Assembly (NCBI GenBank): GCA_032622095.1
Contig: CP136069.1
Location: 169,438,394-169,502,393 of the forward strand
Length of the DNA stretch: 64,000 bases
Reading direction: 5' to 3'
Source: Siphonodentalium dalli
Lineage: Eukaryota > Mollusca > Scaphopoda > Gadilida > Siphonodentaliidae
Within the stretch, counting starts at the first letter, position 1. The number at the start of each line of letters is the position of its first letter. Under the pieces are notes generated by a model. That model worked only from the letters and a program-made list of their open reading frames with translations. It was not told the DNA's origin and ran no database searches. The position numbers were made by a program, and so were the translations under genes. Shown here piece after piece: positions 10,249 to 61,613 of this stretch.

Positions 10249-10252
10249 TTAA

Positions 10253-10459
10253 CCCTTCCTTAAATTTTGCGAAAACCCTGCCAGGGAGCCTCGCATATAT
10301 AAAAGAATGCATTAGCTTACAATATTTACCATGACCTTGTAAGCCAGTGCATTCGGTTATGTGTGCGAGGCTCCATATGGGAGACTCGCACATATAAGAG
10401 AATGCACTGGCACAGGATCTTTAATAGTGCACCACCGCAGCTCTTCAAACAAAAAATGG
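10253..10459. mobile_element. TTAA MITE with GCGAAAACCCTG and GATCTTTAAT arms
   Basis: It is flanked by TTAA at 10249-10252 and 10460-10463. The left end reads CCCTTCCTTAAATTTTGCGA and the right end finishes in CAAAAAATGG. It holds one complete palindrome (10343-10411, core CTCCATATGGGAG) and a half palindrome at about 10290-10313. The right-hand TTAA is also the left-hand TTAA of the next element, so the two abut. Confidence 0.75.
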
Positions 10460-10463
10460 TTAA

Positions 10464-10858
10464 CCCTTTACCCAACAGAACGGCCCTGTGCCAATGCATT
10501 CTCTTATATATGCGAGTCGACCATAGGTCGCCTCGCATATATATATAAGAGAATGCATTGGCTTAACACATTAAAAATTATAAAATTGTTAAAGAATGTA
10601 AGAAAAAATGGTAAAAAGTGTTAAAAAAAGATTTTTTTAGGCCAATGCATTCTCTTATATATGCGAGGCGACCTATGGTCGACTCGCATATATAAGAGAA
10701 TGCATTGGCACAGGGCATAACTGTAACTATCACAATGTGGTCAAGGAGCCGGTTCCAATGATATCCATATTTGTATGGTTTTATTGAGACAGACCCAAGA
10801 TAATTTAGGCTGTTGCAGCTTTATTTGGCCGGTTTTGGCCGGTTTGTTGGGTAAAGGG
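10464..10858 (+). mobile_element. piggyBac-like MITE with two internal palindromes, copy 1
   Basis: A 395-bp element with inverted ends CCCTTTACCCAACA and TGTTGGGTAAAGGG and TTAA on both sides (10460-10463 and 10859-10862). TTAA target duplication with CCC/GGG termini is the hallmark of piggyBac-type transposition. It contains two copies of the 69-73-bp palindrome (10490-10562 and 10641-10709) separated by an AT-rich spacer. The right part has TTTGGCCGGTTTTGGCCGG just inside the terminus. There is no coding capacity, so mobility would need a transposase in trans. Other copies are at 17855-18115 (truncated), 50416-50786 (inverted) and 61221-61613. Confidence 0.9.
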
Positions 10859-10862
10859 TTAA

Positions 10863-12673
10863 ACCGCATCAGAAGTGGGGACCTTTTATAGGTGACAAGT
10901 ACGAAAGGTCGCAGACTCATTTGTAACCAAATTACAGTCTTTGATCAGAGATCAATTTGTAAAATGTCGGCACAAAAATCAATTAGAGTTTGTGAGAGCC
11001 AGGAATGTAGCGCCTATCATTTGTGGTTTATTAGATTTTCGGGGTATGCATGGCAATGAGAAAATAAGTGTAACGAACTATGTTCCTCGTTGAAGCTGTC
11101 ACATTGAATGCCTCTAAACAAATCGTATTGTCTCTAAGTACAAAGGTTCTGACTATGCTTGATAGTGTGTGGACGGGTGATTTGAAGTTCAAATTGCTAT
11201 ATTACATGTTTTCTAATAGATCTCCATTATATTTCCAGAAGACGGATTTGTGTGACGCCACATCATTCACCAGAGGGCAGGTCGCCCAAGTGTAAGCTCA
11301 CACACAAACTGAGAATTTGTGACGTCACGTGGCACGCCAACACAGTGAGCTGCTGTGCCTGTTAAATAGCGAATCGGATGTATCTGGATCCAAACGGAAT
11401 TGTGCCATGCACTTCTGAAGTCACATCAAGTGGAAATGAAAGCTAGATAAGAGACAGCTAGTACTTGGAAGCGTTTGTTAGAGGGAACTATACCCTTTCA
11501 CTTCAACGGAGAACATACGGTAACTGTCGGGACGAAGAATTGTTGTTTCATGTCAACAGAGACGGCGAACGTTCAGTGTTTAAACGAGTGAAAAAGAACT
11601 GGCTTCCTGAACATGTGTGTATTACTAATTGTGCCCTCTTATGGTGTATATTGGCAAGCATATGTGGCCCTGTCGTAGGAGCTGATGGACTAAATGTGAT
11701 GGCAGCACCTCAGCATAATAACGCGTAAATTGGAAATTGATGTGTGGTTATTGGTGTATAATTGCAATCGGCGTTGCGTGTTTACCGATTAACCTTTCAA
11801 CCAATTGAAGCCTATGCCCCTTTGTGAACACATATACGTGACGCATGGTGTGTAAATAGTTCATAATTATCATAACTTGAGTTAGGCACGTCTTATTTTA
11901 AAAGTGTTTTCACATGCTTCATCGTCATCGCCAAGCACACACCATACACAAATGCAAAAACAGTACATATTAAAGCTCCAATATATTTGATATATGCCAA
12001 TAATATGATCTTGAGGGTGTTACCATTTCCGACTATGAGTTATAGCTTGTGAGTTATCAAAATTATTATTGCTAATTCCTGATAGCCATCGAAAACGACC
12101 GACTCGTTTGTTTTTCCTTCACCATGGTCTTCTGTTTTGGAAATTCTACCGATTCATGTGGGTCTTTTGAACCTAATTTATAATGTAGAAGTTCTATCAC
12201 ATAGACAAGGATAACCCAGTCGTATACATGGTGGATTGTTTTCCATGTGCTTTAGCACTTTAGTTTCGTGAATGACAATGTTTATCTCGTACATTTGCAG
12301 TATTCGTTGAACTTGAAGAAATTTGCTTTATAAACTTTGGGTTTTTCCAATATTCGATCATTTTGAACATTAACTGGGTTACACGATTGGCTATGTAATT
12401 TTCGGAACATAGTATTATTGTTCTTGAAACAGATAATACTGATTTATTAGTATTATAATATAAAGTATGTTAACAACGTTTGTTATTCATCTAATGTGGG
12501 GTTCTCAAAGGCTAAATCATATGATTGATTGGGAGTTTAACACCGGTTTAGCTGTTAGACCATACCACGACCAAGAACATAATCAGGTATAAAAAAGATC
12601 GGAGCGAAGCAAAAAGATAAATCAGACAGTGGATTAGATTAAAACAATGAGCTATTTACAAACAAAAGCACAC
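10863..12673. other. Stretch without a confirmed gene; possible promoter-like segment
   Basis: No exon could be confirmed. The segment around 11240-11730 is less AT-rich than its surroundings and contains a CRE/E-box pair (see separate entry). The open frame at 11465-11728 (87 codons) shows no recognised motif, and I do not call it a gene. An untranslated first exon of the downstream symporter gene could lie here, but nothing in the sequence proves it. Confidence 0.4.
11320..11331. promoter_or_regulatory. Overlapping CRE and E-box motif
   Basis: TGACGTCA at 11320-11327 is the palindromic cAMP-response element, and CACGTG at 11326-11331 is a palindromic E-box. They overlap by two bases. Such a pair can occur by chance and no transcript is known here, so the regulatory role is only a suggestion. 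Confidence 0.25.
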
Positions 12674-12675
12674 TA

Positions 12676-12888
12676 CAGTAATGCTCAAAGTAATTGACCA
12701 CTTAACCACAGCAGAATTATGGGTAATTTTTCAGGATTTAGTCGGAAATATGGCTTGTTGCCATTCATCGGAAAGCTCTCGGCGAGAGCTTTCCGATGAA
12801 TGGCAACAAGACATATTTCCGACTAAATTCTAAAAAATTACCCTTAATTCTGCTGTGGTTAAGTGGTCAATTACTTTGGGCATTACTG
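12676..12888. mobile_element. Foldback MITE with TA target site
   Basis: A 213-bp element made almost entirely of one inverted repeat with arms of about 105 bp meeting at AGCTCTCGGCGAGAGCT. By eye the arms differ at about five positions. The ends are CAGTAATGC and GCATTACTG, each next to TA (12674-12675 and 12889-12890). CAGT termini with a TA duplication fit a Tc1/mariner-type non-autonomous element. The high arm identity suggests recent activity. Confidence 0.85.
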
Positions 12889-13049
12889 TACATGAATGTT
12901 TTAACTAGGAGTCAGGAATATAAACTCAATAACTGACTAGTGCAAGCATACTATATAACACGTATAAAAGTAGTACAAGAATACATAATAGATCGCAAAT
13001 AAATAACACGCAACTACCAAGTCTGCAAATCGAAATATGTTAAGTAGCT

Positions 13050-13710
13050 TTTAACATCTGATTTTGCGATGATAAGGTATTTATAATATTTGATGAATCA
13101 CGCATGAACCCTTTATCAATGCGTCAAGCTGATGGTCGGGTGGGTGAGACAGTCCTTCATCCAAACAACACCTCAATCCACAAATACTGTTTGGTGCATT
13201 GTAGTGTTAATCGTTTCTCATGACGTATCTGGTCAAATTTTTATATTTCAAATTTTAACCTCTCTTTCTAAGATTCTAAACGTTGGAGAGACTTTGGCAA
13301 TTTCTGTTTAGAAGCAACAGGCGATTTTTGTTGTGATGCAATAACATCAATTGGCTCAAGTTGAGCGGATTGTTTGTAAGCAACGGGTGCATCGTCAGTA
13401 TATGTTTCCATGTCATGTGGTACAGGTTGTGGGGATGAGTTAGATCAGTTACGTCAAGTTATGTCGCTTGTGATACACGAATGGTGTTGGTCTGGCTGTT
13501 GTATGTCTGGGCGCTGGCATCATCCCATATTTTTTGTAGAAACGATAACCTGGTATGTGACTGGTTGAATTGACGGTCGAGCACCAACTTTTTTCTTTGC
13601 ATCGAAATATGATAGATGCACAGCCTTACAGCGTTGAATTTTGAATTCATATTCTCATATGGGAATTGAAAGATCCATTGCAGTATGTGAACCTTGACCT
13701 TTAGCACTTT
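13050..13710 (-). pseudogene. LINE ORF1 relic, C-terminal half (copy A)
   Basis: On the minus strand, shifting between frames, this encodes a series matching copy C at 20930-21770. It has an AMD-S-PI stretch, then EYEFKIQRCKA, a HLSY-DAKK stretch, a RPSIQPVTY stretch, and a shared 3' end near GATTTATAATATYTGATGAATC. This is the part of a Jockey/I-type LINE ORF1 (nucleic-acid-binding gag-like protein) after its zinc knuckles. Stops and frameshifts show that it is dead. Confidence 0.6.
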
Positions 13711-14401
13711 TATTGAAATAGTTTTATTGAAATCAAGAACCTGTTAAATGAACTACTTGGCATACAACACAAATAAATGGTAAATTGTTCTAGGTTTCTA
13801 TATGGGGAGAGATAATTTTAGACCAAATAAAGATAAGAAGAAGGGAAGATAAATTTACAGAAGGTGAAATGGAGTGAAGCATGTTGATAATTGCTTTAAG
13901 AAAAACGGTATACTGTGGGGATGGTGTCTGTTCAGAAATCAATATTAGTTTTTTTTCCGATGCTTATCGTTTGTACAATTATCGGTTTCTTTTGTAAATA
14001 TGTAATATACTTCGTTTGTCGAAATATAAAGGGTTTCGTGAGAAAAGCTAATTAATGTACGTGTATGTATAGTGTGTGTGAATATCAGGGGTAGCTAAGT
14101 CCGGATGGCAATAAGCGTTAATGCATGTGCAGACCATCAGCCGAAATATAGCATTTGATTTAATATACATAGCCATATTAAATGTGAAAATATATGGATA
14201 ACAAATATCTATAAGGATCTGGAATCTCTGGATTCAAGAAGGGTTATATTGAATGTTGTGTTTCATTAATCAACAAGTCCGACAAACCCATGCCATCGAC
14301 CAAACACTTTTGATATTGGCATTTACTGAAGTGGTAAACCCTCTCGACCGAATAGTAGTATTTCAGTTGAGATTTCAGATTTGCTGCGATAAGTTTTTCT
14401 T

Positions 14402-14790
14402 CTCTCATTTTCGCACGATATATGAAAAATGTGATGAATATAATTAAGAAACGGATTGATACATTCTGTATTCCCTCTCGTTGTGCAAATAGAATATTAA
14501 ATTCAGTAAAATTAAATGGAGTTGCTGTTTTTTCGTTAAATCAGTCTTTTATTTTATTTCATTCCAAAAAGCTTTGCCAAAATATGTGTTGTACATCTTC
14601 TCTTTCTTTACCACAACAGGTACACAGATCATTTGTTGTAATTTTCGTTTTTTTTTACATAACGCCTTTGTTGCAATAATTCTGGTATTAATACGAAACT
14701 GGAACCACCTGAATTTAGTATCGCTTGTGCATCTGTAAGGCTTATTAGGTATATTAGCCATTACAGTATTGGTCCTTAAAGGTGTTAAAA
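14402..14790 (-). pseudogene. Non-LTR retrotransposon pol relic, C-terminal tail
   Basis: The minus strand reads TKFRWFQFRIN-RIIATKAL followed, after a frameshift, by elements of a C..C...EE...H.FW tail ending near FWNEIK. This pattern (K-RW-Q-RIN-RI, then a zinc-binding-like C..C....E...H.FW..C) is the post-reverse-transcriptase region of L1/Tx1-type LINEs. A second relic of the same kind is at 44290-44570. No reverse-transcriptase core is present. The frame is broken. Confidence 0.6.
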
Positions 14791-15179
14791 TTGTTGTACC
14801 ATTTATTCATACAGGTAGGTATGGTTTCAATCTCATTCAAAGTCAAATATATCACTTGACTATTAGAACGCCATAAGATAAATAGGTGCAAAGACATTAT
14901 CGGGTTCTGTAGCGTGGGACATTCTGTCGTTGTCTAGAGTGCGAAGGAATTTTCTAATTGCGACGATTATTCTATTAAAGGTTATAACATATGGTGTATA
15001 AGGGAAGTTTTATTTCGCTCCTCCGTACTATATTGGTGTATAAGGGAATTTTTTTCTTTCGCTTCTCCATACGATATTATAGTTACATCTTCACAAATGA
15101 TAATTCACAAAAAGAATGCCTTTACGTTCTAATTCAGGGAATTTTAGTGTATTCTGTCCGATTTTAATTCGAGAGTTAT

Positions 15180-15770
15180 CGCAAAATTGCTGGGACATCA
15201 GCACTGTTTTTGGTTTAGTACAATCCTTATGATCATGACCAGAAACAGAACAGCGTGCACATATGGTTTCTTTACTTTTACAATATTGCTGACCATGATA
15301 TTACCCCTGACATTTAAACATCGTAAGGGATTTGGAATATATATAGACAAATCTATCTTCGTATATTCATCCTTCAATGAAAGTCAAAAGGTAACTATGC
15401 AAAGGAACTTTTAGTCCATCAACGGTCCTAGAAAATCATAACGCCCTGTGGTGCCAACTAAGCCAATATCTCCGACCCAGAAGAGTTGGGTATATCGCGG
15501 GCTCTCAAAAATGCTCTCCTCTGCTACTATTCGATGTTTTGTGAGCACCAGGTTGCAATTTCTTTGAACGTTCAATTAGGAGAGTGCCAGTCACACACCC
15601 GGTCCTAATCCGTTTGACAGATTTCAAATGTCCGACAATACGTTTAAGTGTCTTATCAATGACAAATACAGAGGGTCTGTTCATAGTTGAGTCATAGCTA
15701 ATAACCAAATACTGAGGGAATACACCAGCATCATTGGAACTAAGTGAGCCATCATTCTTACGATAGGTCG
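15180..15770 (-). pseudogene. LINE ORF1 relic with zinc knuckle (copy B)
   Basis: The minus strand encodes, in order, a FPQYLVIS-like segment (about 15700), FVIDKTLKRIVGHLKSVKRI, a LLIE segment and a TSNSSRG segment. A frame change then leads to a PNPL-C/MF stretch and a CCHC-like zinc knuckle with ETICARCS-SGHDHKDCTKP at about 15200-15330. This is the N-terminal domain followed by zinc knuckles of Jockey/I-type ORF1 proteins, which bind the element's RNA. Frameshifts make it a relic. It lies 5' on the minus strand of the pol relic at 14402-14790, but the two may come from different elements. Confidence 0.65.
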
Positions 15771-16015
15771 TGTTTTTTGTTTTGAGTTGACGCGGACAAC
15801 CCTTCGAATTCTGGTCGGGCCAAAGACTGGTACATATATAGCTGAAGCTGTGACCCGATTCGCCACCGCATATAGCAGCCTCTTGGTGGCTGCCCACAGT
15901 GAGACATGCGTGAACAATACACGATTCAACACTCAACAATCAGCAGGGCGAACACCAAAGAGACATGAAAGAACCGAAAAATCATACGCGAAAAATAGAA
16001 AACAGTACTTCCAAC

Positions 16016-16811
16016 CAGGGGTGGCACCAGAAAATCCCCGACAGGGGGGCTACACTAAATTACACCATATTGCCTGTTGGTATGTGAAATGAGCGCACAT
16101 AGTGTCAATGAACTGAACAACGTCCCATGTACCGATACTAGTAAATACAAAATTAATGCCTTACTTATATATCTGAACGTAACACATGACACATGATGGT
16201 TCCGGGCCGGGCCAAAATACGAGGGAGTCATCATAAAGTTTAGCAATACATCAGCCATAATTAGCAGATGAGATAACTCGAAGATTAAAACCCATGAATC
16301 GTTGTGAAAATTCCTATATTCTAGGGAAGCCACTTGTCTTCTGTGTCAGTTCTAATTTCTAATTTTATTAGTTGCAAGTGCCAGCATGGTGTTTCACTGT
16401 CGGGGATATAGCTAACATGTGGCCATACTGTAGGTACTCAATGGTTCTATAGACCAATGTGGCCACTGTGACGAATGCCAGAGTAGCCAGCAATGATAAA
16501 GCACACATGTTTCAATAGATTTTCATTACCACTAAATTGACTAAAACGCTGATCGTGTAACAATACAGGGGAATACCCCCGGATTTAATGGGAACATGTG
16601 CCATGAGTATTTTGTGTGGGATATATTCCGCTGTATGTTTTCTATTTGATATTTTATCACACTGATCGTCTGTACATGATTACTTCATCTTATACACACA
16701 ACCGACTTACATATAGAAAATCCCCGACAAGTCCTCCCCGACGAGGGGACTAGAGCTCCCCGACAAGGGGCCTGTAGCCCCCCCCCCGTGTCCCCCACTG
16801 GCGCCACCCTG
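16016..16811. mobile_element. hAT-type MITE with perfect 8-bp target duplication
   Basis: A 796-bp element with inverted ends CAGGGGTGGCACCAG and CTGGCGCCACCCTG. It is flanked on both sides by CTTCCAAC (16008-16015 and 16812-16819). An 8-bp duplication with CAGGG...CCCTG ends is diagnostic of the hAT superfamily. The subterminal regions are rich in CCCCGACAGGGG-like words. The internal sequence shows no transposase, so it is non-autonomous. Confidence 0.92.
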
Positions 16812-16819
16812 CTTCCAAC

Positions 16820-17850
16820 ATCAGACGGACAATACAACATATAACACAAATTGAATCTGAAACACTGTGGAGAGTCGTGACTAGCCGGTTGATTGAGACC
16901 CCTGGATCTCTATATATTTACAATATAGTGAATATAAGTTTTTATAATAAGTCGCATATAGTATCATTTCGTTGTGTTTTGCTTGGTGTGTGGCCCTCGT
17001 GGTATTTATATTCCTATGATTTAAACTTGTTGAACGGTTTTACTGGTACGCTGCCGTTCTATACTTATTCTATATTTATGTTGACATTCAAAATTGTCCG
17101 TGTGGCGTTTCGGAATGTGTACCTAGGGTTATTACGCACCTGTGTCCATGTTACCGAAGACAGGGTTACCCCTGTATCCTAAGGTGTTCCCAGCCCACTG
17201 GATCTCTATATTGTTACAAGACCCGTCTTGAAGAGATGCAGGACCGAAGTGGACCATGAGCTAAGACGTATCCGCGTGTCAGTGCATCACGTGGTACGGC
17301 CGCACTATTACCACCAGGACTCATATACCTCACGGGATGCACACAACGGCTAACATGATGCAACGTTAGGGATTTTTAACCCTCGCAGTGGGGCGGTATG
17401 CATAATCTTACCAGAGCCCACACGTGGAGGGGGGGGGGGGGGTAAATAATACAAATCTCTACATAAGTATCAATTGAATTTATTACTGTTACACATACAC
17501 GTATATCGTCTTATGAAACTTTAGGTTGGGATTATCGTTTACTTAGCGAGGATGGAAAAATACCATAATATACAGTGGGTACACGATGTGTACATGCATC
17601 TCGAATTTTATCTAGCAAACTAGAAAATTGTCCCCTATTTATGTTATAGATAATTAATTAATTAGCACCCCCCTCTCTCTCTATCCCTTTCCAAATTTAG
17701 GATGTGATATTATTATTAAATATTATTATCTTTTTACTGTAGTGACCTATTACCCAAGATATCTCAGTTCAGTTAACACTAGCACCATTTGTAATTGTCT
17801 CCCTAACGTGATGCATGCAAACAATTACTAGGTTTACTTCATGGGTCGCT
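16820..17850. other. Stretch without a recognised gene
   Basis: The 101-codon open frame at 16877-17182 has no recognised motif. A G run lies near 17427-17442. The words CCCTCGCAGTGGGGCG near 17378 recur near 34167, suggesting an old dispersed repeat whose limits I could not define. Confidence 0.45.
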
Positions 17851-17854
17851 TTAA

Positions 17855-18115
17855 CCCTTTACCCAACAGAAGGGTCCTGTGCCAATGCATTCTCTTATAT
17901 ATGCGAGTCGACCATAGGTCGCCTCGCATATATAAGAGAATGCATTGGCTTAACACATTAAAAATTATAAAATTGTTAAAGAATGTAAGAAAAAATTAGG
18001 CCAATGCATTCTCTTATATATGCGAGGCGACCTATGGTCGACTCGCATATATAAGAGAATGCATTGGCACAGGGTATAACTGTAACCATCACAATGTGGT
18101 CAATGAACCGGTTCT
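17855..18115 (+). mobile_element. piggyBac-like MITE, copy 2, right end missing
   Basis: It begins after TTAA (17851-17854) with CCCTTTACCCAACAGAAGGG and carries both palindromes (17881-17949 and 18000-18068) with a shortened spacer. Homology to the 10464-10858 copy stops after GGTCAATGAACCGGTTCT near 18115. The GGCCGG block and right terminus are lost. Confidence 0.85.
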
Positions 18116-18325
18116 CAAAACATTCATTTCCGAACAAATTCGTCGATTTATATGGCGCTGAAATTACGTCTTTATGACAGTTGTGTTTAAACCTCGCCTC
18201 ACATATGATACATTATATCAGTTATGCCAACGACATATGGTCTGAATACCCGCCTATTATTACCACTTACACGTTTCAGTAACCAAAAACAGTCTCCAAA
18301 AATGCCCAAACGCTCGTTGGCACCC

Positions 18326-18400
18326 CATCGAATCCGCCATGCATCCATCGAATCCGCCATGCATCCATCGAATCCGCAATGCATCAATCGAATCCTCGGA
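18326..18400. repeat. 20-bp minisatellite
   Basis: Three units of CATCGAATCCGCCATGCATC (the third with one change) plus a partial fourth. It lies inside a 135-codon open frame (18224-18631) that is otherwise featureless and that I do not call a gene. Confidence 0.9.
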
Positions 18401-28248: not shown

Positions 28249-28315
<67 letters not shown>

Positions 28316-28517: not shown

Positions 28518-28545
28518 TAAGTTCGCCACAGTGGACCTTACAGAC
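28518..28545 (+). other. 5' untranslated part of first coding exon
   Basis: An AG at 28516-28517 preceded by a long CT tract makes a strong 3' splice site, so transcription probably begins in an exon further upstream. The ATG at 28546 is chosen because it lies six codons before the conserved FGVVDY segment. An in-frame GTG at 28531 is not a plausible start in an animal gene. Confidence 0.6.
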
Positions 28546-28881
28546 ATGGACGAAACAACGTTCGGGGTGGTAGACTATGCGCTCTTCGGAGCAATGTTAG
28601 CTGTATCGGCGATAATTGGAATATTCTATGGTTGTATTCAGAAGCAGAGAACAACAGGAGAGTTTCTCATGGCAAACCGAAATTTGGGAACCATTCCGGT
28701 TGCGATATCCATCCTGGTTTCGTTCATGTCCGCCATATTGATTCTGGGAACTCCGGCGGAGATGTATACCAGAGGAACTGAGTACTTTTTGAGCACGTTC
28801 GGACTTTGTTTTGGAATCGCCTTGGCATCTTTACTGTTCGTTCCGCTGCTATATCCACTAAAGCTAACAAGTTCGTTTGAG
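28546..28881 (+). CDS. Symporter exon 1 (residues 1-112)
   Basis: Codes for the extracellular N-terminus and the first three membrane helices. Helix 1 spans about residues 11-30 (DYALFGAMLAVSAIIGIFYG), helix 2 about 50-68 including SFMSAILILGTP, and helix 3 about 78-103. The loop EFLMANRNLGTIPVA matches the family's (D/E)FL-GGR-m---P-a consensus. The exon ends at TSSFE with donor gtgaga, phase 0. Intron 1 is 3177 bp. Confidence 0.95.
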
Positions 28882-31800
28882 GTGAGACGTTTATGAGTAA
28901 GACATACCAAACTTATTTCATGGGACTGAATTAATCTCATTATTTAAATGTAAAATAAGCCGTATATGGGCCTAAACTCATGACATTAAAACGACCCTAT
29001 ATGGGACTATTTCAATATTAAATAAACCCGTATAGTGCATGTTTTCACAAGAACAGGCTTGAAAATAATACGAACAAACAACTCACGACTTACCATAATC
29101 ACGCTCTTTATAATGTGTTTTACCAACATATCTTCTCAGAAATACGCACATAATCAACCTATAATGTGAAATGGGTACATAATGTGATTATTAGATTCTT
29201 AAATAAGCAGATAATTACTCGTACCCGTTATTTCGTTTATGGCCGGGCCACAGTTGGCTTATTTTAGTAATTTTCCGCATATAATCTGCTTCGAATCGCC
29301 TAATTATGAGTCGAAAAAATGTGACTAAAATGTTCTCATCTTCAACACATTACCGACTCAAAATGAATCGATTCTAAGCAGATTATCTACCTAAAACAAT
29401 TTACATTATAAGCAGATAATGTGCTGATTTTCGGGAGAACAGGCCGGTTTTCACTGTGGCCCGCGACATCCAACCTAACTAACAGGTATAAGTCCAATAT
29501 GGGGGCTCATTTCAGAGTGAAATAAGTCCAATATGAACCTATTTGCGCGATGACATGTCGTTTTTCTGATTACGGAACCTTGTATAGATATGGTAGATAG
29601 GGAAATATTTGTTTGTTTGTTTTTTTTTTTTAAATGTTTTCTAAATCTCCCAGTTTCCACTGGACTAATTAATTTACTTAATGTTCCCTGAACCATGCAG
29701 TGTAAGCAATATAAGTCATGATAATTATGTTTGCATACATACATACATACATACATACAATATAAGTAATGAGAATTATGTTTGCATACAATATAAGTCA
29801 TGATAATTATATTTGCATACATACAAGCAATATAAGTCATGATAATTATGTTTGCATACATATATTGTATGTATGTAAACATAATTATCATGACATATAT
29901 TGTATGTATGCAAACATAATTATCATGACTTATATTGTGAGTCATAATTTTGTTTGCATACATACAATATAAGTCACGATAATTATGTTTGCATACATTT
30001 TGCGAAAACACTGGGCCAATGCAATCTCGTATATATATGAGAGTCTCCCATACATAAGAGAATACACAAGCACATGATCTTTAATGGAATGCTCTGTTAC
30101 TATACGTTAAAATCATATTTTCCTTAACAGAGTTCTGTACTAGATGGTCGTGCATTAATGTGTTCCGACTTTTTCTTCGAATCCCTCTGGCATATTTTAT
30201 GTCCACTCCCTTAGCATGAGGCTAAACGCCAATCGATCGGGTTTCTGGTTTAACCTCTAAGTCGAACCATGAGTTTCAATCTACAAAAACACAAAGACAT
30301 GCATGGGCGATCTTATTTCAACTTAGCGTGACGTGAGTGCTTTGATTAGCCAGTCTGTTCTCATGAAATAAGCACATAACGGGCTTATTTTAATGAGCGA
30401 AATAAGCTTAAATTAGCATTATTTAATCACAATATAAGCCATATATGGACCAAAAAAGGGAGTTGTAAAAACAGTCCAATATGGACTGTTTCCATACGAA
30501 ATAAGCCTATATTGGCATTATTTATTCTACCTTTTTTCATCGACAAGACTTACCAGATTCACGCTCTTTATAATGTTTTCGCTGCGAATAACTGAACTGA
30601 ATAACGAGTATGAGCTCACTATGTCACTATGGTCTTATTTCATAATCTTATTAGTCCAATATCAACCCATGCTAATATTTAGGTCAATATGAACCTATTT
30701 GCCCGAGGATATGTCGGAATAGCACTGTTAATATATCACTGGATTGTTGATTAGCGACCTCGATTACATGTGCAGATCTAGACATACTAGCATGCGGGCA
30801 ATGAACTTACGAATAATCACGAGGCCAAACTTACGAATTATATAGTTACAGCCAATCAAATCTTTCACAAATTAACCAGCGAACAGCAAGGAAATTAGCA
30901 CATGGATAATTTGATCTGTCTTCCTTTCGAATTCAGGTTCATCTACACGAAAGTCATAAATCATGTAACCATGGCTGGCCTTCATTGTCAACATATCCTC
31001 GCGTAAATACGCACATAATCGACATATATTGCACATATATATAAGTACATACTGTGATTATTTGATTCTGAAATAAGCAGATAATGGACTGCTGTCCGTT
31101 ATTTCGTGTTATGGCGCCGACCACAACTAAAACACTTGTTAAAGAGCGTACACCTAAACAGTCGCGAGTTGGCTTATTTGTCTCATTATCCGCACATAAT
31201 CTGCTTAGAATCGAATAATTACGAGTCTATAATGTGACTAAAATCTTCTCATTTGCAGCACATAATCGAATCAAAATGAGGCGATTCTAAGCAGATTATC
31301 TGACTAAATTAAATTCTATTATAAGCAGATAATGTGCTGGTTTTTGGGAGAACAGTTTGTCATTGTCGTTTCAGCCACTAAGACATATTAGTTGACACAA
31401 CGATGTAGTAAGTATTCTTGGCTGGGGGGGGGGGGGGGCGATCATATATGTTTATGGACATATTCTATGCGAGCTCCGATGTGTAACATTGCAGGTTAAA
31501 TGTGTTATACCCAAACATCTATACATGCACTATATCAATTACTAGTTGCCTGTTGTCATGATATGAGTGTTACTCGTGCAAATGATTATATGTTGAATGC
31601 TCATAATAACTTCCTGAAAGACCTTTGATTGTCCATGATATTGACAAGTTATATTATATTTCTGCATTGTCAATATTGACTCAGTATTAAACCAAATCTA
31701 AATTGGCAAGGACAGGATATACTAGTATATGCACTAACACCTGTTGGATCAGTATGATAGACTAATTGTGAGATCTATAGTGTATCATTTGTGCAAATTC

Positions 31801-34800
31801 CATGCTTAATAAAATATATAATAGTTTCAGTATTGAACTTCAAAAACTTATCATCCAAGTAAAAGGAATCATTATTTCATGTGTTTTTATTTTGTTGTGG
31901 AGCAGGCAGTGAACACTCAAATGCGAGGAAATTGCTTCTTTTGATATAAAATTTCGTTATTTGTTCACATCTGGCCGAACTATGGTCCATCACCGCTGTG
32001 CCCAATATACAGCAATCTAAAGGCCTGATCAATATCCGTTATATCTTCTCTTCGGCAGTATTTGGAGAAGAGATTCAACTCTAAAGCAGCCAAACTGACT
32101 GGAACTTTACTCACGATAGTACAGCAGGTACGTATTAATTACTCAGTTTATTTACGAACTGAATGTATTTGCATTACTACATACTCATAAACGAGTAGTC
32201 CCCTTATATTAGGAGATATTCAGAAAATAAGTTCTTCGAACGGTCATACGCCATTTCTTGAATATATTGTCTTGATTTTCCCCACCAATTATTACATTAT
32301 GTAAGAACCCTTCTGAACATGCATCATTTGCTCGTTATCAGAATAGAACCATGTTTTTCCTTGTGACATTGGCTGAAATTAGTCCTAGAACGATGGGAGT
32401 GGAAATATTAAATAAGGTTTTTGTCAAAATTAAAGATAACTCAGTATAACTTCCACTGCCAGAGTGCAAAATATATTAGAATATCATTAATTAAGCACAG
32501 TTATATGTCGTCAAGGAGTAATTCAACCATTGTTCCATGTGAATTATTAGTGACACTTCCCGTAGGGGTTGGTGAGCATTGAACGCACCAAGAATAGACG
32601 TAGTGCAACACCTATGGTCGACTCGCATATATAAGGGAATGCATTGGTACAGGATCTTTAATGTTGCGCCAGCGCAGTTCCCGTCATGAAATGGTCACGC
32701 GACATATTCATTGCCGTCCAAAAGTTCATCGACGATACCAAACGATTTAAAGGCACGTGCGGCCTTAATTGTCGAAAATATTCATTTTTGTTCCAAACAC
32801 CGTAAACAGAAAACAGTAAAATGCATACAGTTCCGTTCATATATACCATGATCATCGCGTAAACAACATGTTATCATAAAGACCTACTATATTTTACCTA
32901 AGCAAGAGCCTGATTGTGTTACAGAAGACAGCACAATGCTACTGGCTAATCACACACAAATGGCATAAACGCTCTTTATTAGTTCCATATCAGGTATTCA
33001 CCAACAAAGAACGCTCTTTATGTTTACCATCATAATATAAACAAACACTAGAAAAGTAACTTTTTATGCTTTTGTTTACATAACAATGGTCAAACATATG
33101 ACCATAACATACTGTTTATGCGATATTTCTTATTTGTATACGGACAAAGTCTATCTACATTTTGATGTTCTTTCTGTTTGTGGCGGTTTTTGACTGGTGG
33201 AGATATTTTCACAGGATACCCACCACCAAGACCAACCGTGTCTTTAAAGGTACTCAACCCGATAAAACTCATCTCAATTACTATTTCAATGGCTTCGGGG
33301 GTCAAAAATATTTGATTCGAGTCGAGGAAGTCACCCATCAAAGCTCAGATTTGTTAGATATCGATTTTAGATATCTATTATTTTTCATTATCGGGAATTC
33401 TTTCTGGCCCAGAACGTAGTCAAAATTGCGTGATTATTACCACTTGATTTTAGAGTTATCCATCCTTGTCTGTTTGAATAGAGTTTTGGTGTAATCATCT
33501 CGAGCAGGTTTCAAAATTGACGGCAATTATTAGTACTCATCTCGAGAAATTAACAAATTTCAAAAATCAATATCTAATAACTCTGAGCTTTGTTTGATGG
33601 GTTCCTCGACTCGAATCAAATATTTTTTACCCCCAAAGCCAAAGAAATAGTAATATAGGACCCTCTGATCGGATTGTTGTTGTAGGAATCTGTTGAGATG
33701 GGGACCCTCTTTACGGATTGAGTACCTTTAACTGACATAATATGGTTATGAACTGTAAAGCGTGAACCAAAAGCCTACATAAAACAAAAATATTGTGCTC
33801 TCTTATACTCAAGCATGCCAGAGGTGTGATTGTGTGTGAGGGGTGGACTCACAGCGATTGGCAACGGGATAGGTTGCGGGTGCTTGTGGAACAGGCAATT
33901 CATCATTGAGACCCAATCAAACCATGATGCAATATATATACTAAGGAAATGGCCACATATAAGCCTTTGGCTTACTGCCAAATCGTTTTCTCTAATGTTA
34001 AATTGTTATCGTCCTTATATTATGTATTATATTGTGCTATTCTTGAGAATAAAATATTGTTTACACTATATGGTCACGCGAGATTATACCGACAGAGCAG
34101 CGGTGAAATCGAGGACAAAGTTCTCTCCTCGCGGCAAATAGGCGTCATATTAGGGGACTCTTACCCCTCGCAGTGGGGCGATGAACATATTCCACCGCCC
34201 CGGGGTCGCTCGGGTGACACCTGACCCAAACTGACGAAAATAAGAATAACTGTCAGAGGGGAGGGGCAATAAAAAACAATTGCAGGAAGGAATGCCGGGG
34301 TGGCTGGGTTATTCGAGTCAAAAAGCGCATGTTTTACAACCTCGTGCAATTTTTTTCACTAAGGACCTTTTGTGCCCATATGGGACATTTGTAACAGTTT
34401 AAAACATTATATAATTGCAAAAACACGATACTTATGTTACTGGGACCTCATATGGGCCTTTGTGGAGATTACATTAAGCTATGACATGTTGCATATGTGA
34501 CGGTGAGGTGAAAAACTTTCTTCCGGACACCCTTTGAGAAATGTATTATAAAAATGATATAAATTTTGTTAGGCCAATGCGTTCCTTTATATATGCGAGG
34601 CGACCTATTGTCGACTCGCATATATAAGAAAATGCATTGGCACAGGGTTTTCGCAAAAAATTCAGGAAGCTCCAGTCATGAAAAGGTTAATGACCTGTGC
34701 CTACTAATTTGAAGTTGACGAATTCGATAGTCGTTTACGTGTCAACAAGTGGTCCTTTGTGTGACTTATATGATGCCTCGCCACCGCTAAATTGTAAGCT

Positions 34801-49800: not shown

Positions 49801-52800
49801 TATACTCAAGTGGATTAACGTGATACGTGTAAACACGCTCTTTGGAATTATACTTTCTGATAAATGATCTGATATGATAGGGACCCACTATAGATTTATG
49901 CTTCGATATTGTTCATGTTAGTTGCATTGCAGATCTGTGTGGCTTAACGTAATCGGTGCTTCGCTCTTGATGACCATCACCTGCCTGTGCGGGATTGTCA
50001 TGTTTGCTTACTACGCACATATCGGATGTGACCCGCTGGAAACAGATCGAGCAAAAAATCCAAATCAAGTAAATATGTACATGTATAGATTCACCTCATT
50101 CTAAATACAAGTATTATAGTTCACCTCAAGAAGAACCTGAAACATAAATATGCTTTGTTCCTATTTCCATCATCAATAATCCAATAATAACGAGTTGCCG
50201 CACGATGACTCCATTGTTATTCACTAAGCTTATTGCAATGATCGAGCACTAGCATTTTTGATTAAGACAACTAAACCATGAACATGCAATTTGAATCACA
50301 ATTGCCATTGGTGATGCACGACAAAGCTACGTTCACTTAAGTGTTTCCGCGCGTAGCTTATCTCCGGATGTGGAAAGTTTAGATGGACCTATACATAATA
50401 CACCTTAACTGTTAACCCTTTACCCAACAAACCGGCCAAATAAAGCTGCAACAGCCTAAATTATCTTCGGTCTGTCTCAATAGAACCATACAAATATGGA
50501 TATCATTGGAACCGGCTCCTTGACCACATTGTGATAGTTACAGTTATGCCCTGTGCCAATGCATTATCTTATATATGCGAGTCGACCATAGGTCGCCTCG
50601 CATATATAAGAGAATGCATTGGCCTAAAAAAAACACTTTTTACCATTTTTTCTTACATTCTTTAACAATTTTATAATTTTTAATGTGTTAAACCAATGCA
50701 TTCTCTTATATATGCGAGGCGACCTATGGTCGACTCGCATATATAAGAGAATGCATTGGCACAGGGCCGTTCTGTTGGGTAAAGGGTTAAGCTGGTGCAT
50801 GAACTGAAGGAATATATGCTATTTGAAGACCACACCATACGTATTATATACATTGTAACAATAAAACTATCAAACAGATAACACGGATCATACGTTTTAA
50901 GGAGAATTGTGGGAGGAGCGTTCTCAACAAGTTTCCAAATTGATTGGAAATGAATAAAGAGTACATGATCTGCAATAGTGAAAATGAGAGCAACACTGCT
51001 TCAATAATGTTAACAGAATGTCAGGTGTGTGTTGGAAAATTTTGATCAGCCATTTGCAAGAACTAATATAATCCTAAGGGCTGAGATGAATTTTAGATCA
51101 TATGTCCAAATCCCCAGCTGACTGGCCTATTTCTATTGAAAGATCACTGCTTGAGTGGACAAGCCTTATTATCAACCATTTGGGCTGGTTCTTGTAACAG
51201 TTCTTACAAATGGCTGACCATAATTCTCCAGCATGCAGCTCGCCGACAGAGTTCTCGTTGGATGCTAACTATCCAAGTCATATGCCATACTTTACCCCGT
51301 GTACACCAAACCTCTCGGTTCGCACATTCGTTCGCGCATCACACATTCGTTCGCATGGCCTATATGTGCACATGTTAAGCAAATTGATCACCTCTGCAAA
51401 TCCATATTCTTCGAGCTTCGGTGGCTTGGTTGGATTCGTCGTTGACTCGCAATTGAAAAATACTAAGTGCAAAAAGAATGGCCGTCTCCTTCCGCATTAC
51501 CGAAATAGACTATTGCAACTTTCTTGTTCCCGATTATCAACTTGCACGGTTACAACGGCTCCAACAATGTGGGAATGTGGGCCCAGAATTGTGTTAAATC
51601 AGAAAGGGGGACAGTTTAGTTTTTATGAGATCAGAGTTACATTTGCCTATTGTGTATATGATTCCCTTCGAAATCACAACATTCGCATGCATAGGGATGC
51701 AGAGCTCGGACACCATTCCATCATGGATGACCGAGCTCATTTACCCATATTTTTCTGATCGTAATGTGCGTTCTAAAAGAAGCAGGCATTCTTACACCTA
51801 AAGGTGCTAACCTTATTACTGGCTGTGACCGGGCTTTTAAATTTGCGTATCCTAACATCTGGAATTCGCTGCCAAAGGCTACTCGGGAATCTAGTTATTT
51901 GCCAGATATCAAGGCAGCATTAAAAACTATGCAAACGCAGGTAAACGCCATGTATTCGAAGAATCAAGTAAAGGATAACAGTGACTCGTTTATCAAATGT
52001 ATTTCATAGGTTGTTGTTTATAGTTGTTTTAAATATATATTTCTTATACGGGATAAGCTATATATAAGAATTTTTATAAACTAACATTCTGTTTACACTG
52101 CAGTGTTGCCCTCAATTAAATAGTCATTTGATTCAGGTCATGCACTGTATCGTGTCAGTTATTCGTTCCCAATCAATGTATATGCTTGTTGCTGAGAACG
52201 CTCCTCCCAAATTCCCCTTACTTGTCTTCGGATAGCATAGATACCTTCGGGTTGTGTACTGGCTTATCAATTAAGCAGTTTTATGTATAGGACGAATTTT
52301 TATAAACTAACATTCTGTTTACACTGCAGTGTTGCCCTCAATTAAATAGTCATTTGATTCAGGTCATGCACTGTATCGTGTCAGTTATTCGTTCCCAATC
52401 AATGTATATGCTTGTTGCTGAGAACGCTCCTCCCAAATTCCCCTTAGTTGTCTTCGGATAGCATAGATACCCTCGGGTTGTGTACTGGCTTATCAATTAA
52501 GCAGTTTTATGTATAGGACGATAAAAACCTTTCCACATCAAGAGACAGGCTATGCGTGAACAACCTTTGAAAATATTGAACATGTATTCTGATTTCCAGA
52601 CCCCAGCTACAACAAAATCATATCATTTTATCTAATTTAGTACAGGATTTATCTTTACTAAGCTGAAAATAAATTTGGGATCGAATGTGACAAATACGCC
52701 TGTTCTGAAAATAAGCTCATATTGAACTTCACACAAATAAGACCATACCGGCCTTATTTTTACGCTCTATCTGAACCTAAATCTACTTACCAGCTGGCCA

Positions 52801-57055: not shown

Positions 57056-57172
57056 GTATATTACAAGTCTGTGAACCGACGACCAAAGCGTCGGTCATTT
57101 ATTAACAGTGTTATAAATGCTCTTTGTTTATTGGACGTAACCGTAAATAATTAAACGAATTGTTTTCTATTG

Positions 57173-57302
57173 TTGCTACAACTCGACTAACTTGTAGCTG
57201 TAATTTACACTGATGTCCTGTTTATTGGTTGGAACTGTACTTAACCCGTAGTATATTATATGCATTCTCCCATCAGTTATAAAAGTATAGATTGGAGTGG
57301 TC
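57173..57302. repeat. Direct repeat, copy 1 (partner 60882-61005)
   Basis: CTCGACTAACTTGTAGCTGT, then TTGGTTGGAACTGTACTTAA, then TATATGCATTCT and TATAAAAGTATA, recur in the same order and orientation at 60882-61005, about 3.7 kb away. There are several substitutions. It contains CCAAT- and TATA-like words, but no promoter role is shown. Confidence 0.85.
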
Positions 57303-57355
57303 TAATATTGATCAGAAGACAAAACATGCGAAAATGTTATACAAGAGCAGAATGA

Positions 57356-57882
57356 TTAAAGGCACGGGTGGCGTTCGTTGCAGAAATATTCATATTTGTT
57401 CAAATCGCCATCAACAGAAGGAATATTAAAATATATATAGTTTTGTTCATATGCCAAACATTATCAGCGCGTAAATAGTATATTGTCGTAAAGACGTATG
57501 ATGGTGTACGTAAACAAGAGCCTGCTCGTGTTACAGAAGTTGTGCTTCTGTTTACATAACACAGCGCAATTCTATTGGTTAATCACACACAAATGATATA
57601 AACGCTCTTTATTTTTTCCATATCAGGAAAACAGTTAATAGAACGCACTTTATGTTGACCATATCCGGATCTGAACAAAAGCCAGTAAACGTAACGTTTT
57701 TTGCTTTTGTTTACATAACAAAGGAAAAACATTTGACAATAACATACTGTTTATGCCATATATATTATTGGTATCAGAACAAAGTCTGTCTATATTTCAC
57801 TAATCCCTCTGTCTATGGCGGTTTATGACTGAGGTGAATATTTTAACAGCATACCCACCGCCAACGCCGCCCGTATCTTTAA
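57356..57882. mobile_element. TTAA/AGGCACG MITE, copy 4
   Basis: The most diverged and longest copy (527 bp). It starts TTAAAGGCACGGGTGGCG and ends CCGCCCGTATCTTTAA. Here the terminal inverted repeat is clearest, extending about 20 bp as AAAGGYACGGGYGGCGTT. Confidence 0.82.
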
Positions 57883-57997
57883 TTGGTGGGAAATGTTTAG
57901 ATAATAAATTCGTTTGTTGGACTTATTATCCGAACAATTCCAAAGGGAAATACTCACCAATGAGTATTTAGTTCGAGAGTGTTAACTTACCTAAGTT

Positions 57998-58089
57998 GCA
58001 CAGGTCCCTGGCACAATAGACCCCCACCACACAAAGGAATATATATATGTCTTTGAGCGGTGGGGGTCTATTGTGCCAGGGACCTGTGC
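57998..58089. repeat. Perfect 31-bp inverted repeat hairpin
   Basis: The arms at 57998-58028 and 58059-58089 are exact inverted copies, starting GCACAGGTCCCTGGCACAAT and ending ACCCCCACC at the loop. The loop is 30 bp and AT-rich. Partial pairing continues outside (TAAGTT/AAGTTG). Its GC-rich arms stand out from the AT-rich surroundings. It could be a foldback element or a structured-RNA source. Confidence 0.9.
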
Positions 58090-58487
58090 TAAGTTGTACA
58101 TACAAATTGTTATATTGTACATGTAGCTACAAGTTAGAATGTTTTATAGGGTGGCGCCAGTACGCTGTCGTACACATACCCGCTATAAATAGATCACCTA
58201 TCGGGCATGTAGACATAAAATGTAACATTTTGTTTGGTATGCACTTGTCAGAAAGTATATTTAAATATATTCGCAACACCACTTGAATATAGATTCCTAT
58301 TTACCATTCGTCATAAAACGTAATAAAACGAGTTACTAATCATATAAATCATGCAAACACTGTCCACAACAGAACTTCAGACCTTTCAGACATATATCAC
58401 TATTACCGTATGACGCTATCCCTAATGCTTTATAGCAGCACATAATTAAAGACATTTTATGGACTTGATCGAGTGCGTGAACTTGAT

Positions 58488-60010
58488 GGCCGGATTCGTC
58501 ATCTCCGGTTTAAACCTCCGAGTTTAAACCTGGTTTAAACCTACATTGGCGGTCCAGCCAAACCGGGTCTAAGGGGCGTTTTTGTCGTTCAGTTACCATC
58601 TAATTGACAACTTGATTTGGTTGTATGAGCATCCAGTCAAACTACCCTCTTACATATCGGACCAAAAGACAAGCCGATATAATGGTTATTAACAGGTCAT
58701 AACTTATCGCGCTCACTGAGAAATAAGTATTGCTCATGGACCATTAATCCTATCTCTTTGTGGGTTTAAATCAATCTGACAAAGGGCATGTCTCTCAAAA
58801 CGAGTTTCACGCGCTGTTTATCACTTTGTTTGTGATAGGGTTTCTGCAAGATGCTTTACCCACAAACACCAACTTTGATGTATTTACATGTATATATGTA
58901 TTAAAGGGTATAGGAGCTGCATGTATGTATGTCCGTTTGTCTGTTCGCAACTGTTCTAATGTGACACAGGCTCCTGTCGCACGAAAGGGCCGCAGGCCCC
59001 TCTGACGCGGAATAAAGGCTCCATAATCGAGTCAATCATGGACCAAGAGGTCAGTCAAGTAAACGCAATTTGCTTATGAATGCACACCATAATCGGCATC
59101 TGAACTGTTTGAGGTGGGCAACCAAACAGAGGCACAGCTTTTAATAAAGAAATATATTACATACGTTGCTTTTTTCAGTATAATAAATAAAAAATAAAAA
59201 AGTTACCAGGTTTTGAACAGGTGGAATATTATGGGAATTTATGGGCGAAGCCAGAGTAGAACTTTGTGGCATGATCTACATCAAAATAAGTTATCGAATT
59301 TGACTCATATAGCGATATAAATTTAGGATTGCAAACTATGTGTATAGCATATCTGGTCATGCAGTAGCATCGTTTTTGTGTCAAAATTAAAACTGAACCA
59401 TTCAAATGAATTCGTAGAAAACACCAGTATTTGTGATTGCCACAAGCCAATCAACTGTGACATGATAACACCAGTCGGCAGCCGCCACTTAGACACGCCC
59501 TCTCTCGAGATAATTTACAGCTCCACCCTTTGATTGTTTGACAATTCTAAACCGCGATGAAGAAAAGACGGATTCGTCATCTCAAGTTTAGCCTCAGTAA
59601 AGCCGGTTTAGCTGGACCGCCGAATTAGATGGTTTAGTTGCCGGTTTAAGCTTATAAAACGCAAACAAAATATCGAAATTGACAAAAACTTATCCCCACA
59701 CGCTTTATAGGTCTGAGTGCTTCTCGCTTATAAGTTTCCAATACAAATATGGTCGCTGTCGTATTTCTTGATTTTCGCAATCAATAAAACGAGGCGGTCC
59801 GCATTAGGAAAGTACGATTAATTATCTCGAAGATACAGAGACACTACTACTAAACCACTGGGCTGGGTGGACCAGGTTTAAACCATAGATGACGAATGCG
59901 TCACTTAGACCTGCGGTCGCGGGTTTAAACCACGGATTTTGCTGACTCACGGCGGTTTAAACCTAGAGATTTACGTAGACCAGGTTTAAACCTGAGATGA
60001 CGAATCGGCC
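58488..60010. mobile_element. TIR element with GTTTAAAC subterminal repeats
   Basis: The ends are GGCCGGATTCGTCATCTC and GAGATGACGAATCGGCC, inverted. Just inside lie multiple GGTTTAAACC palindromes (58508-58540 on the left, 59870-59995 on the right) and internal copies of the terminal motif near 59568 and 59888. It is 1523 bp long. No transposase was recognised; the 81-codon frame at 58760-59005 has no motif. The end pattern GATTCG-CATCTC-GGTTTA resembles 37519-40069. No clear target duplication was found. Confidence 0.8.
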
Positions 60011-60221
60011 CGATAAGTTAGTACTCGGGCCCTATGCCAACATGGGCAATGTTTTTTCTACTAACATCGCCTAATTTCAAAAGTACCATTCCAAAACACA
60101 TTCTGAGACTAATTACATACTGTAAAATTAAGAAATATATATGTGTTATTGTTCTTGTTTGATTGGTTTTGTTTTCGAGGCATCATTGACGGTTATGTTG
60201 CCATATTTTGCATAGAATGAC

Positions 60222-60518
60222 TGGCCGGACTACAAATACGCACATAATCGACCTATAATTTGAAGTAGGTACATAATGCGATTATTTGATTCTGAAATAA
60301 GCAGATAATGGAGACATATCCGGTACTTCGTGTTATGGAGCTGGCCACAGTGAAAGAGCGTACACTTATTTGTGTCATTTTCCGCACATAATCAAATGAC
60401 TAAATCTTTCTCATTTTCAACACATTATCGACTCAAAATGAGACAATTCTAAGCTGATTATCTACCTAAAACAGTTCTATTATAAGCAGATACTGTGCGG
60501 ATTTTTGAGAGAACAGGC
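60222..60518. mobile_element. GCACATTATCTGC MITE, copy E
   Basis: It runs from ACAAATACGCACATAATCGA to GCAGATACTGTGCGGATTTT then TGAGAGAACAGG. It has the shared CGACTCAAAATGAGACAATT block. It is shorter than copy B in the middle. Confidence 0.8.
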
Positions 60519-60881
60519 TGCGCCGAAAAGTTAATAACAGGAACGATGGGTGGTCTCAAATAACGATTTTTCCTGAGAAAACAGATGACTCTTTTGACCT
60601 GGGACATATGCGGAGATAATCAGCATATGTGACAATTTAACATCAACACAGAGAATATTTTAGATAATGGCTGTTTTGAGATATGATCGATAATTTGATG
60701 ATGCTAGAATTTCGGAAATGTAATAGTTGATCGAGCACCCCATTTAAAATGGTCGTGAGGCAATAGTTTGACTGTCTGATTCAAGGTGTACATAAAATGT
60801 TGACCGAATATGGTGCACTATCCAAGAAATTGTCTCCACAGGCAGACAAGATATAGCTACAGCTGCTTTATATTTTTGCTA

Positions 60882-61005
60882 CAGCTCGACTAACTTGTAG
60901 CTGTAACTTACACTGATTTCCTGTTCATTGGTTGGAACTGTACTTAACCCATACTATACTATATGCATTCTCGTATCAGCTATAAAAGTATACATTGGAG
61001 TGGTG
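60882..61005. repeat. Direct repeat, copy 2 (partner 57173-57302)
   Basis: Same order of words as copy 1 (CTCGACTAACTTGTAGCTGT, TTGGTTGGAACTGTACTTAA, TATATGCATTCT, TATAAAAGTATA). Confidence 0.85.
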
Positions 61006-61220
61006 GTAAAACAAGATACTGTGTTGTTTAATGCAGATATTTCCATCCAAATTAGCCGAGTTTGGAATAGAATACATACCGGTAACCGTGCTCACCTAGA
61101 TGCGTCGAAAGTCGTTCCGACTTAATCCAGAACAATAACAATGAATAAATCACAGCTGATATTGCCCACCTGAGTCAATAAAATCAACAATGTAAGCTGA
61201 ATACTTCCAGGTTCCACTAA

Positions 61221-61613
61221 CCCTTTACCCAACAGAAGGGCCCTGTGCCAATGCATTCTCTTATATATGCGAGTCGACCATAGGTCGCCTCGCATATATA
61301 AGAGAATGCATTGGCTTAACACATTCAAAATTATAAAATTGTTAAAGAATGTAAGAAAAAATGGTAAAAAAGTGTTAAAAAAAGATTTTTTTTAGGCCAA
61401 TGCATTCTCTTATATATGCGAGGCGACCTATGGTCGACTCGCATATATAAGAGAATGCATTGGCACAGGGCATAACTGTAACTATCACAATGTGGTCAAG
61501 GAGCCGGTTCCAATGATATCCATATTTGTATGGTTCTATTGAGACAGACCGAAGATATTTTAGGCTGTTGAAGCTTTATTTGGCCGGTTTTGGCCGGTTT
61601 GTTGGGTAAAGGG
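61221..61613 (+). mobile_element. piggyBac-like MITE, copy 4
   Basis: 393 bp, near-identical by eye to 10464-10858 and in the same orientation. Palindromes at 61247-61315 and 61396-61464. The right flank is TTAA (61614-61617). The left flank is CTAA, one substitution away from TTAA. Confidence 0.92.

Follow-up and report, generated by a model that had tools for sequence, protein, structure and literature searches.

How does one and the same palindrome come to lie inside transposons whose ends differ? The question is raised by a 64,000-bp stretch of the genome of the scaphopod Siphonodentalium dalli (GenBank assembly GCA_032622095.1, contig CP136069.1, positions 169,438,394 to 169,502,393), called the window below, in which a palindrome of 69 bp recurs within short elements of several kinds. 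We found one palindrome consensus behind unrelated ends in three families, A, B and E. The ends of A and E are coupled to the core that contains the palindrome, A, B and E have target duplications of two types, and variation at the level of the source elements is low in the palindrome of A and B. The reading that we prefer, and to which we give a probability of roughly 55%, is that a lineage of non-autonomous transposons (miniature inverted-repeat transposable elements, MITEs) retained a core of importance for amplification as its outer ends changed several times.

Occurrence and structure of the palindrome

The window lies within contig 9 of a 9-contig, ~2.23-Gb genome. It contains 11 complete palindromes, each with both arms (starts in Table 1), and four partial ones, at 3087, 10297 (right arm), 30015 and 32629 (right arm); all of them had been listed in the original prediction, which was made from the sequence of the window. 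The length of 69 bp given there holds for 10 of the 11 complete copies, the copy at 10490-10562 being 73 bp long owing to an additional TATA. As single-stranded DNA the palindrome is predicted to fold into a single hairpin with one mismatch and a 3-nt loop (-37.8 kcal/mol, z -16).

In the 2,226,750,531 bases of the nine contigs the 20-nt arm is matched exactly 156,203 times in forward and 156,049 times in reverse direction (312,252 in total), compared with no exact match for the reversed arm, which served as control. When up to 4 mismatches were allowed, 25 matches of the arm were found in the window and 42 when 126 kb of sequence from arbitrary positions was added; for the reversed arm there were none in this combined sequence. 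The arbitrary sequence was made up of 18 stretches of 7 kb each, taken from all nine contigs, and seven full palindromes were present in five of these stretches (L001, L004, L011, L017, and L018; sampled loci bear L numbers), the window having 11 per 64 kb. A scan of the window at the Rfam gathering thresholds returned no match, and the arm sequence had no match in IMG/VR or in the text of the open-licence literature.

A shared core behind unrelated ends

Copies aligned side by side reveal a common unit larger than the palindrome, namely CCCTGT-palindrome-CTAAC...AT-rich loop...GTTAG-palindrome-ACAGGG. Outward the palindrome is bordered by (C)CCTGT or its complement ACAGG(G), an edge that is nearly invariant across all families. 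Inward follow CTAAC or TTAAC and a loop rich in AT that contains the motif AATTGTTAAAGAATRYAAGAAAAAATTATTAAAA; beyond it there is usually a second palindrome, inverted relative to the first. The shared unit is not the palindrome alone, as had been predicted, but also includes CCCTGT and the AT-rich loop. Elements of families A (~390 bp) and E (~453 bp) contain two palindromes, those of family B (~238 bp) contain one beside one end.

The palindrome consensus is the same in A, B, and E (69/69 positions). Its centre is slightly asymmetric, and the orientation of this centre relative to the core is alike in the three consensus sequences, which points to shared descent. Elements of a further family, C/D, often carry an older version of the palindrome with another centre (window 10343, L001, L018, L053, L055); in L004 and L054 C/D-type ends are combined with the A/B/E-type palindrome. 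The half-loops next to the palindrome are related and diverged: the right half-loops of A and E, for instance, show 41 identical and 7 different positions in 48 aligned. In 24 of 36 half-loop pairs the score exceeded those of all 200 shuffles, in 12 it did not.

In all, four families with unrelated outer ends carry the core: A (TTAA/CCCTTTACCC), B (TTAA/CCCTTTGAGTGCC), C/D, and E, the last of which was not seen in the window and came to light in the random sample (L011). After trimming of CCCTTT and CCCTGT, comparison among the outer ends of A, B, C, D, and E gave no clear mutual similarity except for C with D and the left with the right end of B; as in the half-loop comparison, the shuffles preserved base composition only. 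This comparison bears out the claim that one palindrome module sits inside elements with unrelated outer ends.

The A end TTAA-CCCTTTACCCAACAG occurs 45,024 times genome-wide in exact form, the B end TTAA-CCCTTTGAGTGCCAGG 14,969 times, and a variant of the latter, CCCTTTCAGTGCCAGG, is found in L062 and L068. Collected copies are 356-452 bp long in A and 215-270 bp in B, and the terminal inverted repeat (TIR) of A, CCCTTTACCCAACA, is exact on both sides in two A elements of the window. C/D elements have the ends TTAA-C[AC]CTTTCATGA..., of which the left one continues into GCGAAAACCCTG and the right one starts with ACAGGATCTTTAATG; the D junction has 8,678 exact occurrences. Two details of the original prediction had to be revised here. 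The GCGAAAACCCTG and GATCTTTAATG arms, regarded as separate neighbours of the palindrome, both belong to a single element, of which they form the two ends (10249-10463; L004, L018, L053), and the end given as CCTTTTGAGTGC reads CCCTTTGAGTGC.

Twenty loci were fetched from the palindrome list, for the most part at places left without a clear explanation by the lists of A, B, and E ends; two lay in or close to tandem arrays. Inspected by eye, all belonged to A, B, C/D, or E, to truncated forms, or to a tandem array of palindrome and spacer, and no sixth backbone was found among them.

Several arrays were seen. L055:18-522 is a direct tandem array of about six units with a period of 97 bp, each consisting of an old-type palindrome and the spacer CTAACAATATTTACCTTGATCTTTGTAA; L052 is a degenerate array of half palindromes whose spacer resembles that of L055. 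On a larger scale, C1:820023-926260 (sampled by L069) is a long tandem array with a unit of ~11.17 kb and two exact forward-strand arms per listed unit, the sampled unit holding an A element. A further array with a period of ~14.56 kb is located at C1:742-786 kb.

Two types of target site

TTAA flanks the left end of A in 23 of 25 copies and the right end in 22 of 25, and the two ends of B in 25 and 24 of 25, where it has to be considered that a pattern containing TTAA had been used to pick the B ends and many of the A left ends, though not the A right end. TTAA targeting is directly visible in L049, in which an A copy is inserted in the TTAA of a D-type end and has TTAA on both sides. Another TTAA-flanked repeat, 488 bp long with the ends AGGTACTCAAYCCG and without the palindrome, is present at 33244-33731 of the window and at L012:327-814.

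The exact E end GTGACCCGCCATATCAAATCCAGTCGTAAGTCGGGA was counted 13,683 times genome-wide. The best 40 of 2562 E candidates are spread over all nine contigs, and ten E copies of the set come from these best-scored 40. TTAA on both sides was found in none of 30 E copies and on one side only in L082. The 4-bp sequences just outside GTGACCC...GGGTCAC match each other in 23 of the 30 (mean 11.6 and maximum 17 in 200 shuffles of the partners); three of 33 E loci had been left out of this count as one end was unrecognised. With a duplicated locus and two doubtful pairs removed, 20 of 27 copies match (mean 10.2, maximum 17, 1000 shuffles), the duplications being ATAT in 14, ATTT in 4, AATT in 1, and ATGT in 1. 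Reading the duplication as 2 bp with one extra terminal base is about equally good (25/30). Thus the earlier description of the carriers as several different TTAA transposons is right for A, B, and C/D and too narrow as a whole, because E bears the same module at another target without TTAA.

The E-ended, 4.5-kb locus L047 was considered as an autonomous E element and rejected, since it is an E copy with a nested element that has a TIR of its own and an 8-bp repeat. The nested element (L047:298-4368, approximate limits) is ~4 kb long, has the TIR CACTGTGTAGGAACTG and is flanked by the 8-bp repeat GTATGGGT; from the length of this duplication we take it to be hAT-like.

Variation in the palindrome and in the flanking sequence

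For the analysis of variation, copies were picked by their outer ends or by similarity over the whole element, and 18 A, 26 E, and 23 B copies were kept. Loci chosen by the palindrome (L051-L070 and the window) were excluded (7 of 25 A, 1 of 28 E), and so were duplicated loci (L079/L081 in E, L035/L134 in B, and one more doubtful B pair). CpG sites, homopolymers of at least 4 nt with 2 bases on each side, and columns with more than 30% gaps were masked. The E, A, and B copies were collected as two-ended or TIR-exact, so that their outer ends are conserved by choice; ends used for selection were left out of the comparison. The 57 TIR-chosen copies (20 A, 17 E, 20 B; one E locus twice) all stem from the first 19 Mb of C1. 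The duplicated pairs L079/L081 and L035/L134 each represent one palindrome-bearing insertion present in two copies with shared flanking sequence, as segmental duplications near the start of C1.

Divergence from the consensus was lower in the palindrome than in the other internal sequence in A (17/2156 versus 59/2296), in E (27/3090 versus 66/3463), and in B (7/1387 versus 42/1191), so that the check named in the original prediction, palindrome against flank divergence, came out as foreseen there. Variants shared by copies reflect differences between source elements. Columns with a variant in at least two copies numbered 1 of 305 in the palindrome versus 19 of 318 in the other internal sequence when the families were pooled (Fisher p 3.3e-5), 0/122 versus 8/132 in A (p 0.007), and 0/61 versus 6/52 in B (p 0.008). 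Among the 57 TIR-chosen copies, the 11 indels of at least 4 bp within the palindrome are all different, and a 19-bp deletion outside the palindrome recurs in three A copies.

Homogenization by gene conversion was considered as well and rejected, between the arms (of 44 changes in a single arm, none has a counterpart on the opposite arm) and between the two palindromes of an element (1 of 58 changes is common to both); both counts were made before the removal of duplicates.

Evaluation of alternative explanations

Several observations weigh against a core that was kept because it matters for amplification. In E by itself the deficit of shared-variant columns is not significant (1/122 in the palindrome versus 5/134, p 0.22). 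Private changes, which arose after insertion, are also rarer in the palindrome (49/6633 versus 102/6950, p 5e-5), hence selection at the source level is not the whole explanation; it is possible that masking, alignment, composition effects, or rare subfamilies seen once contribute. A narrow, recent burst could likewise give low shared variation. The larger indels outside the palindrome are mostly unique too, which makes the indel pattern a weak support. Two of 21 outer-end pairs are marginally similar (A left with A right, p 0.04; A right with B right, p 0.048), and all eight pairs with the left half-loop of A are among the 12 that did not beat the shuffles. Finally, the 12 piggyBac loci fetched, in two of which the ends were recognised, yielded no autonomous partner having ends of type A, B, C/D, or E.

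The main rival explanation is that the core is a functionless passenger, carried by chance in chimeric sources and uniform because few sources were amplified recently. We regard this as a serious possibility, if clearly the less probable one. The families are indeed young, with ~2-3% divergence from the consensus at masked internal sites outside the palindrome, truncation and damage to the core are frequent among the copies, and the missing significance in E would fit as well. A mere passenger, however, would not lead one to expect shared variants to be scarce in the palindrome of A and B, within the same copies, or the same core to recur in four end types.

Another alternative is that the palindrome serves as a site for a piggyBac-type transposase, to which the C-terminal cysteine-rich domains (CRDs) of the dimer would bind as in piggyBac and piggyBat. 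Such transposases are plentiful in this genome, with at least 128 matches to PF13843 and many open frames (116 scored of 649 candidates), and A, B, and C/D use TTAA. There is also a model for such a site, as identical 19-bp palindromic sequences are described for the left and right ends of piggyBac, and pairs of CRDs bind palindromes (PMC11707139). Of the 12 piggyBac transposase loci fetched, two have a clear TIR pair, CCCTTTATCTGCTATA, and in the other ten no pair was recognised; one locus, L019, has a single B-like end with 4 mismatches. Even with 5 mismatches allowed, the palindrome arm is missing from 11 of the 12 loci, with both ends recognised in only two of them, and the one match in L076, with 5 mismatches and located within the transposase match, looks like chance. 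Moreover, 69 bp far exceeds the known site lengths, and E has the identical palindrome with a different TIR and with TTAA on both sides in none of 30 copies. A piggyBac-specific binding site is the best known parallel, yet it leaves E unexplained, and we consider it improbable.

The two loci with recognised ends, L071:563-3973 and L073:1750-5167, are 3.4-kb piggyBac elements with identical 16-bp ends and open transposase frames, and several equal-scoring copies suggest recent activity. At L017:2958-6255 a TTAA element starting with CTCATTCAGTGCCGGCGACG is situated in a TTAA directly beside a palindrome; it has a piggyBac transposase match ~2.2 kb inside.

It had also been proposed that the palindrome is a small mobile unit in its own right; the core would then have inserted into other MITEs and been carried along by them. 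The nearly identical edge (C)CCTGT in all families could be read in this way, and so could the 97-bp array of palindrome and spacer in L055 and the two E-type cores without a recognisable E end in L063 and L066, which may however be truncations. Ends and core are closely coupled, though. An A end is followed by the core sequence CCTGTGCCAATG within 1-14 nt in 39,279 cases, compared with 45,024 exact A ends overall, and an E end is followed by the core in 11,287 cases versus 13,683 exact ends (the pattern of the latter count being one base longer). Core-free A elements were matched exactly only five times genome-wide, all five with remnants of the core and thus deletion products, and no exact match to a core-free E element was found genome-wide. 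From this coupling and the lack of core-free progenitors, it seems that A and E already had the core when their expansion began. There is no sign in A and E, the two families counted, of a core inserting into ready-made hosts, and by eye no direct repeat is seen around CCCTGT...ACAGGG in A. An independently mobile core is thus very unlikely.

That all copies are simple deletions of one full-length ancestor, the case named at the outset as the one that would overturn the idea, can be dismissed in spite of frequent truncations and internal deletions, as A, B, C/D, and E have outer ends that bear no relation to one another and A, B, and E each have a target duplication of their own, with E using another type of target.

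A possible role of the core

If a MITE lineage did keep its core through several changes of ends, the palindrome would be the most conserved part of a shared core with the arrangement CCCTGT-palindrome-loop-palindrome-ACAGGG, or half of it. The outer ends would determine which transposase mobilises the element, ends of types A, B, and C/D using TTAA like piggyBac and those of type E giving an AT-rich 4-bp duplication. Copies with an intact palindrome would have been amplified preferentially. The palindrome may aid mobilisation or re-replication, either as a dyad bound by protein or as an extruded hairpin, irrespective of the transposase that cuts the ends. The mechanism by which ends were exchanged can only be guessed; recombination, or template switching during gap repair, among nested or neighbouring MITEs might be responsible.

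A more far-reaching and quite tentative idea is that the palindrome is an amplification module independent of the transposase, whose hairpin or dyad would be read by a host replication, repair, or chromatin factor and would raise the copy yield of its carrier. Ends would then have been swapped repeatedly around the palindrome, even between transposase superfamilies. A MITE family is commonly delimited by its ends, the part read by the transposase. In the present case it is the ends that have been substituted and the interior that persists, and this interior occurs with two kinds of target site. The families could thus provide a testable case of MITE bursts driven by cis sequences besides the ends, and a possible way for a non-autonomous element to free itself from reliance on a single transposase.

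Elements in the window

The elements are compiled in Table 1.

Table 1. Palindrome-bearing elements of the window, and the E copy of the random sample
Position	Strand	Family or type	Palindrome(s)	Ends and remarks
3043..3130	+	D-type end	3087-3106 (partial)	limits approximate
4640..4830	-	B, palindrome-bearing half	4711-4779	end ...CTGGCACTCAAAGGG-TTAA; left limit approximate
10249..10463	+	C/D	10290-10316 (half); 10343-10411 (full, old type)	left end ...GCGAAAACCCTG; right end ACAGGATCTTTAATAG...TTAA
10460..10862	+	A	10490-10562 (73 bp); 10641-10709	TTAA to TTAA
17851..18125	+	A, right-truncated	17881-17949; 18000-18068	right limit approximate, by eye
30000..30090	+	C/D, degenerate	30015-30071 (shortened)	limits approximate
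32608..32697	+	D-type right end	half palindrome	limits approximate
34520..34690	-	C-type end	34573-34641	ends at TTAA; other end truncated or lost; left limit approximate
50412..50790	-	A	50555-50623; 50692-50760	TTAA to TTAA
61217..61617	+	A	61247-61315; 61396-61464	left TTAA is CTAA
L011:3895-4349		E		TIR GTGACCCGCCATATCAAATCC; AT-rich 4-bp target duplications; dispersed genome copies in addition

The C/D element at 10249..10463 adjoins the A element at 10460..10862 at its right TTAA. An open frame at 28531-28896 of the window resembles an exon of a sodium-coupled solute transporter (SLC5-like).

Comparison with known systems

The closest precedent that we found in the open-licence literature is that of the CMITEs of Acropora corals (Wang et al. 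2010, PMC2872659). These are TTAA MITE families with different TIRs, mostly CCCTTT..., and with a 75-base internal region that is more conserved than the TIRs, is of unknown origin and has been proposed to play a role in transposition. They are ~100 bp long with an estimated ~1600 copies in A. millepora, all with TTAA, and tandem arrays occur; in the main text a hairpin, stem, or palindrome is nowhere mentioned. Compared with this description, the elements studied here likewise have several TIR families, one conserved internal region, and tandem arrays. They differ in being ~240-455 bp long, in having a near-perfect 69-bp palindrome, single or as an inverted pair, and tens of thousands of copies, and in that one family, E, is not flanked by TTAA.

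With piggyBac-like and other TTAA MITEs in general they share the TTAA duplication, the CCCTTT ends, and the short, non-coding sequence, whereas here the internal palindrome surpasses the ends in conservation and spans different end types. The internal sites of piggyBac and piggyBat are similar in being palindromic and near the transposon ends, where they are bound by the CRD; they are at most 19 bp long and specific for one transposase (PMC11707139), unlike the 69 bp found here with two target types. Inverted repeats inside the element are also a feature of foldback-like elements and of the MSITEs named in PMC2872659, but A, B, and E have in addition TIRs and target duplications.

Given the CMITE precedent, the principle of one conserved inside behind several ends has been in print since 2010. 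What is new here is the palindrome as the conserved part, the scale, a carrier that does not use TTAA, and the evidence at the level of variants in two families.

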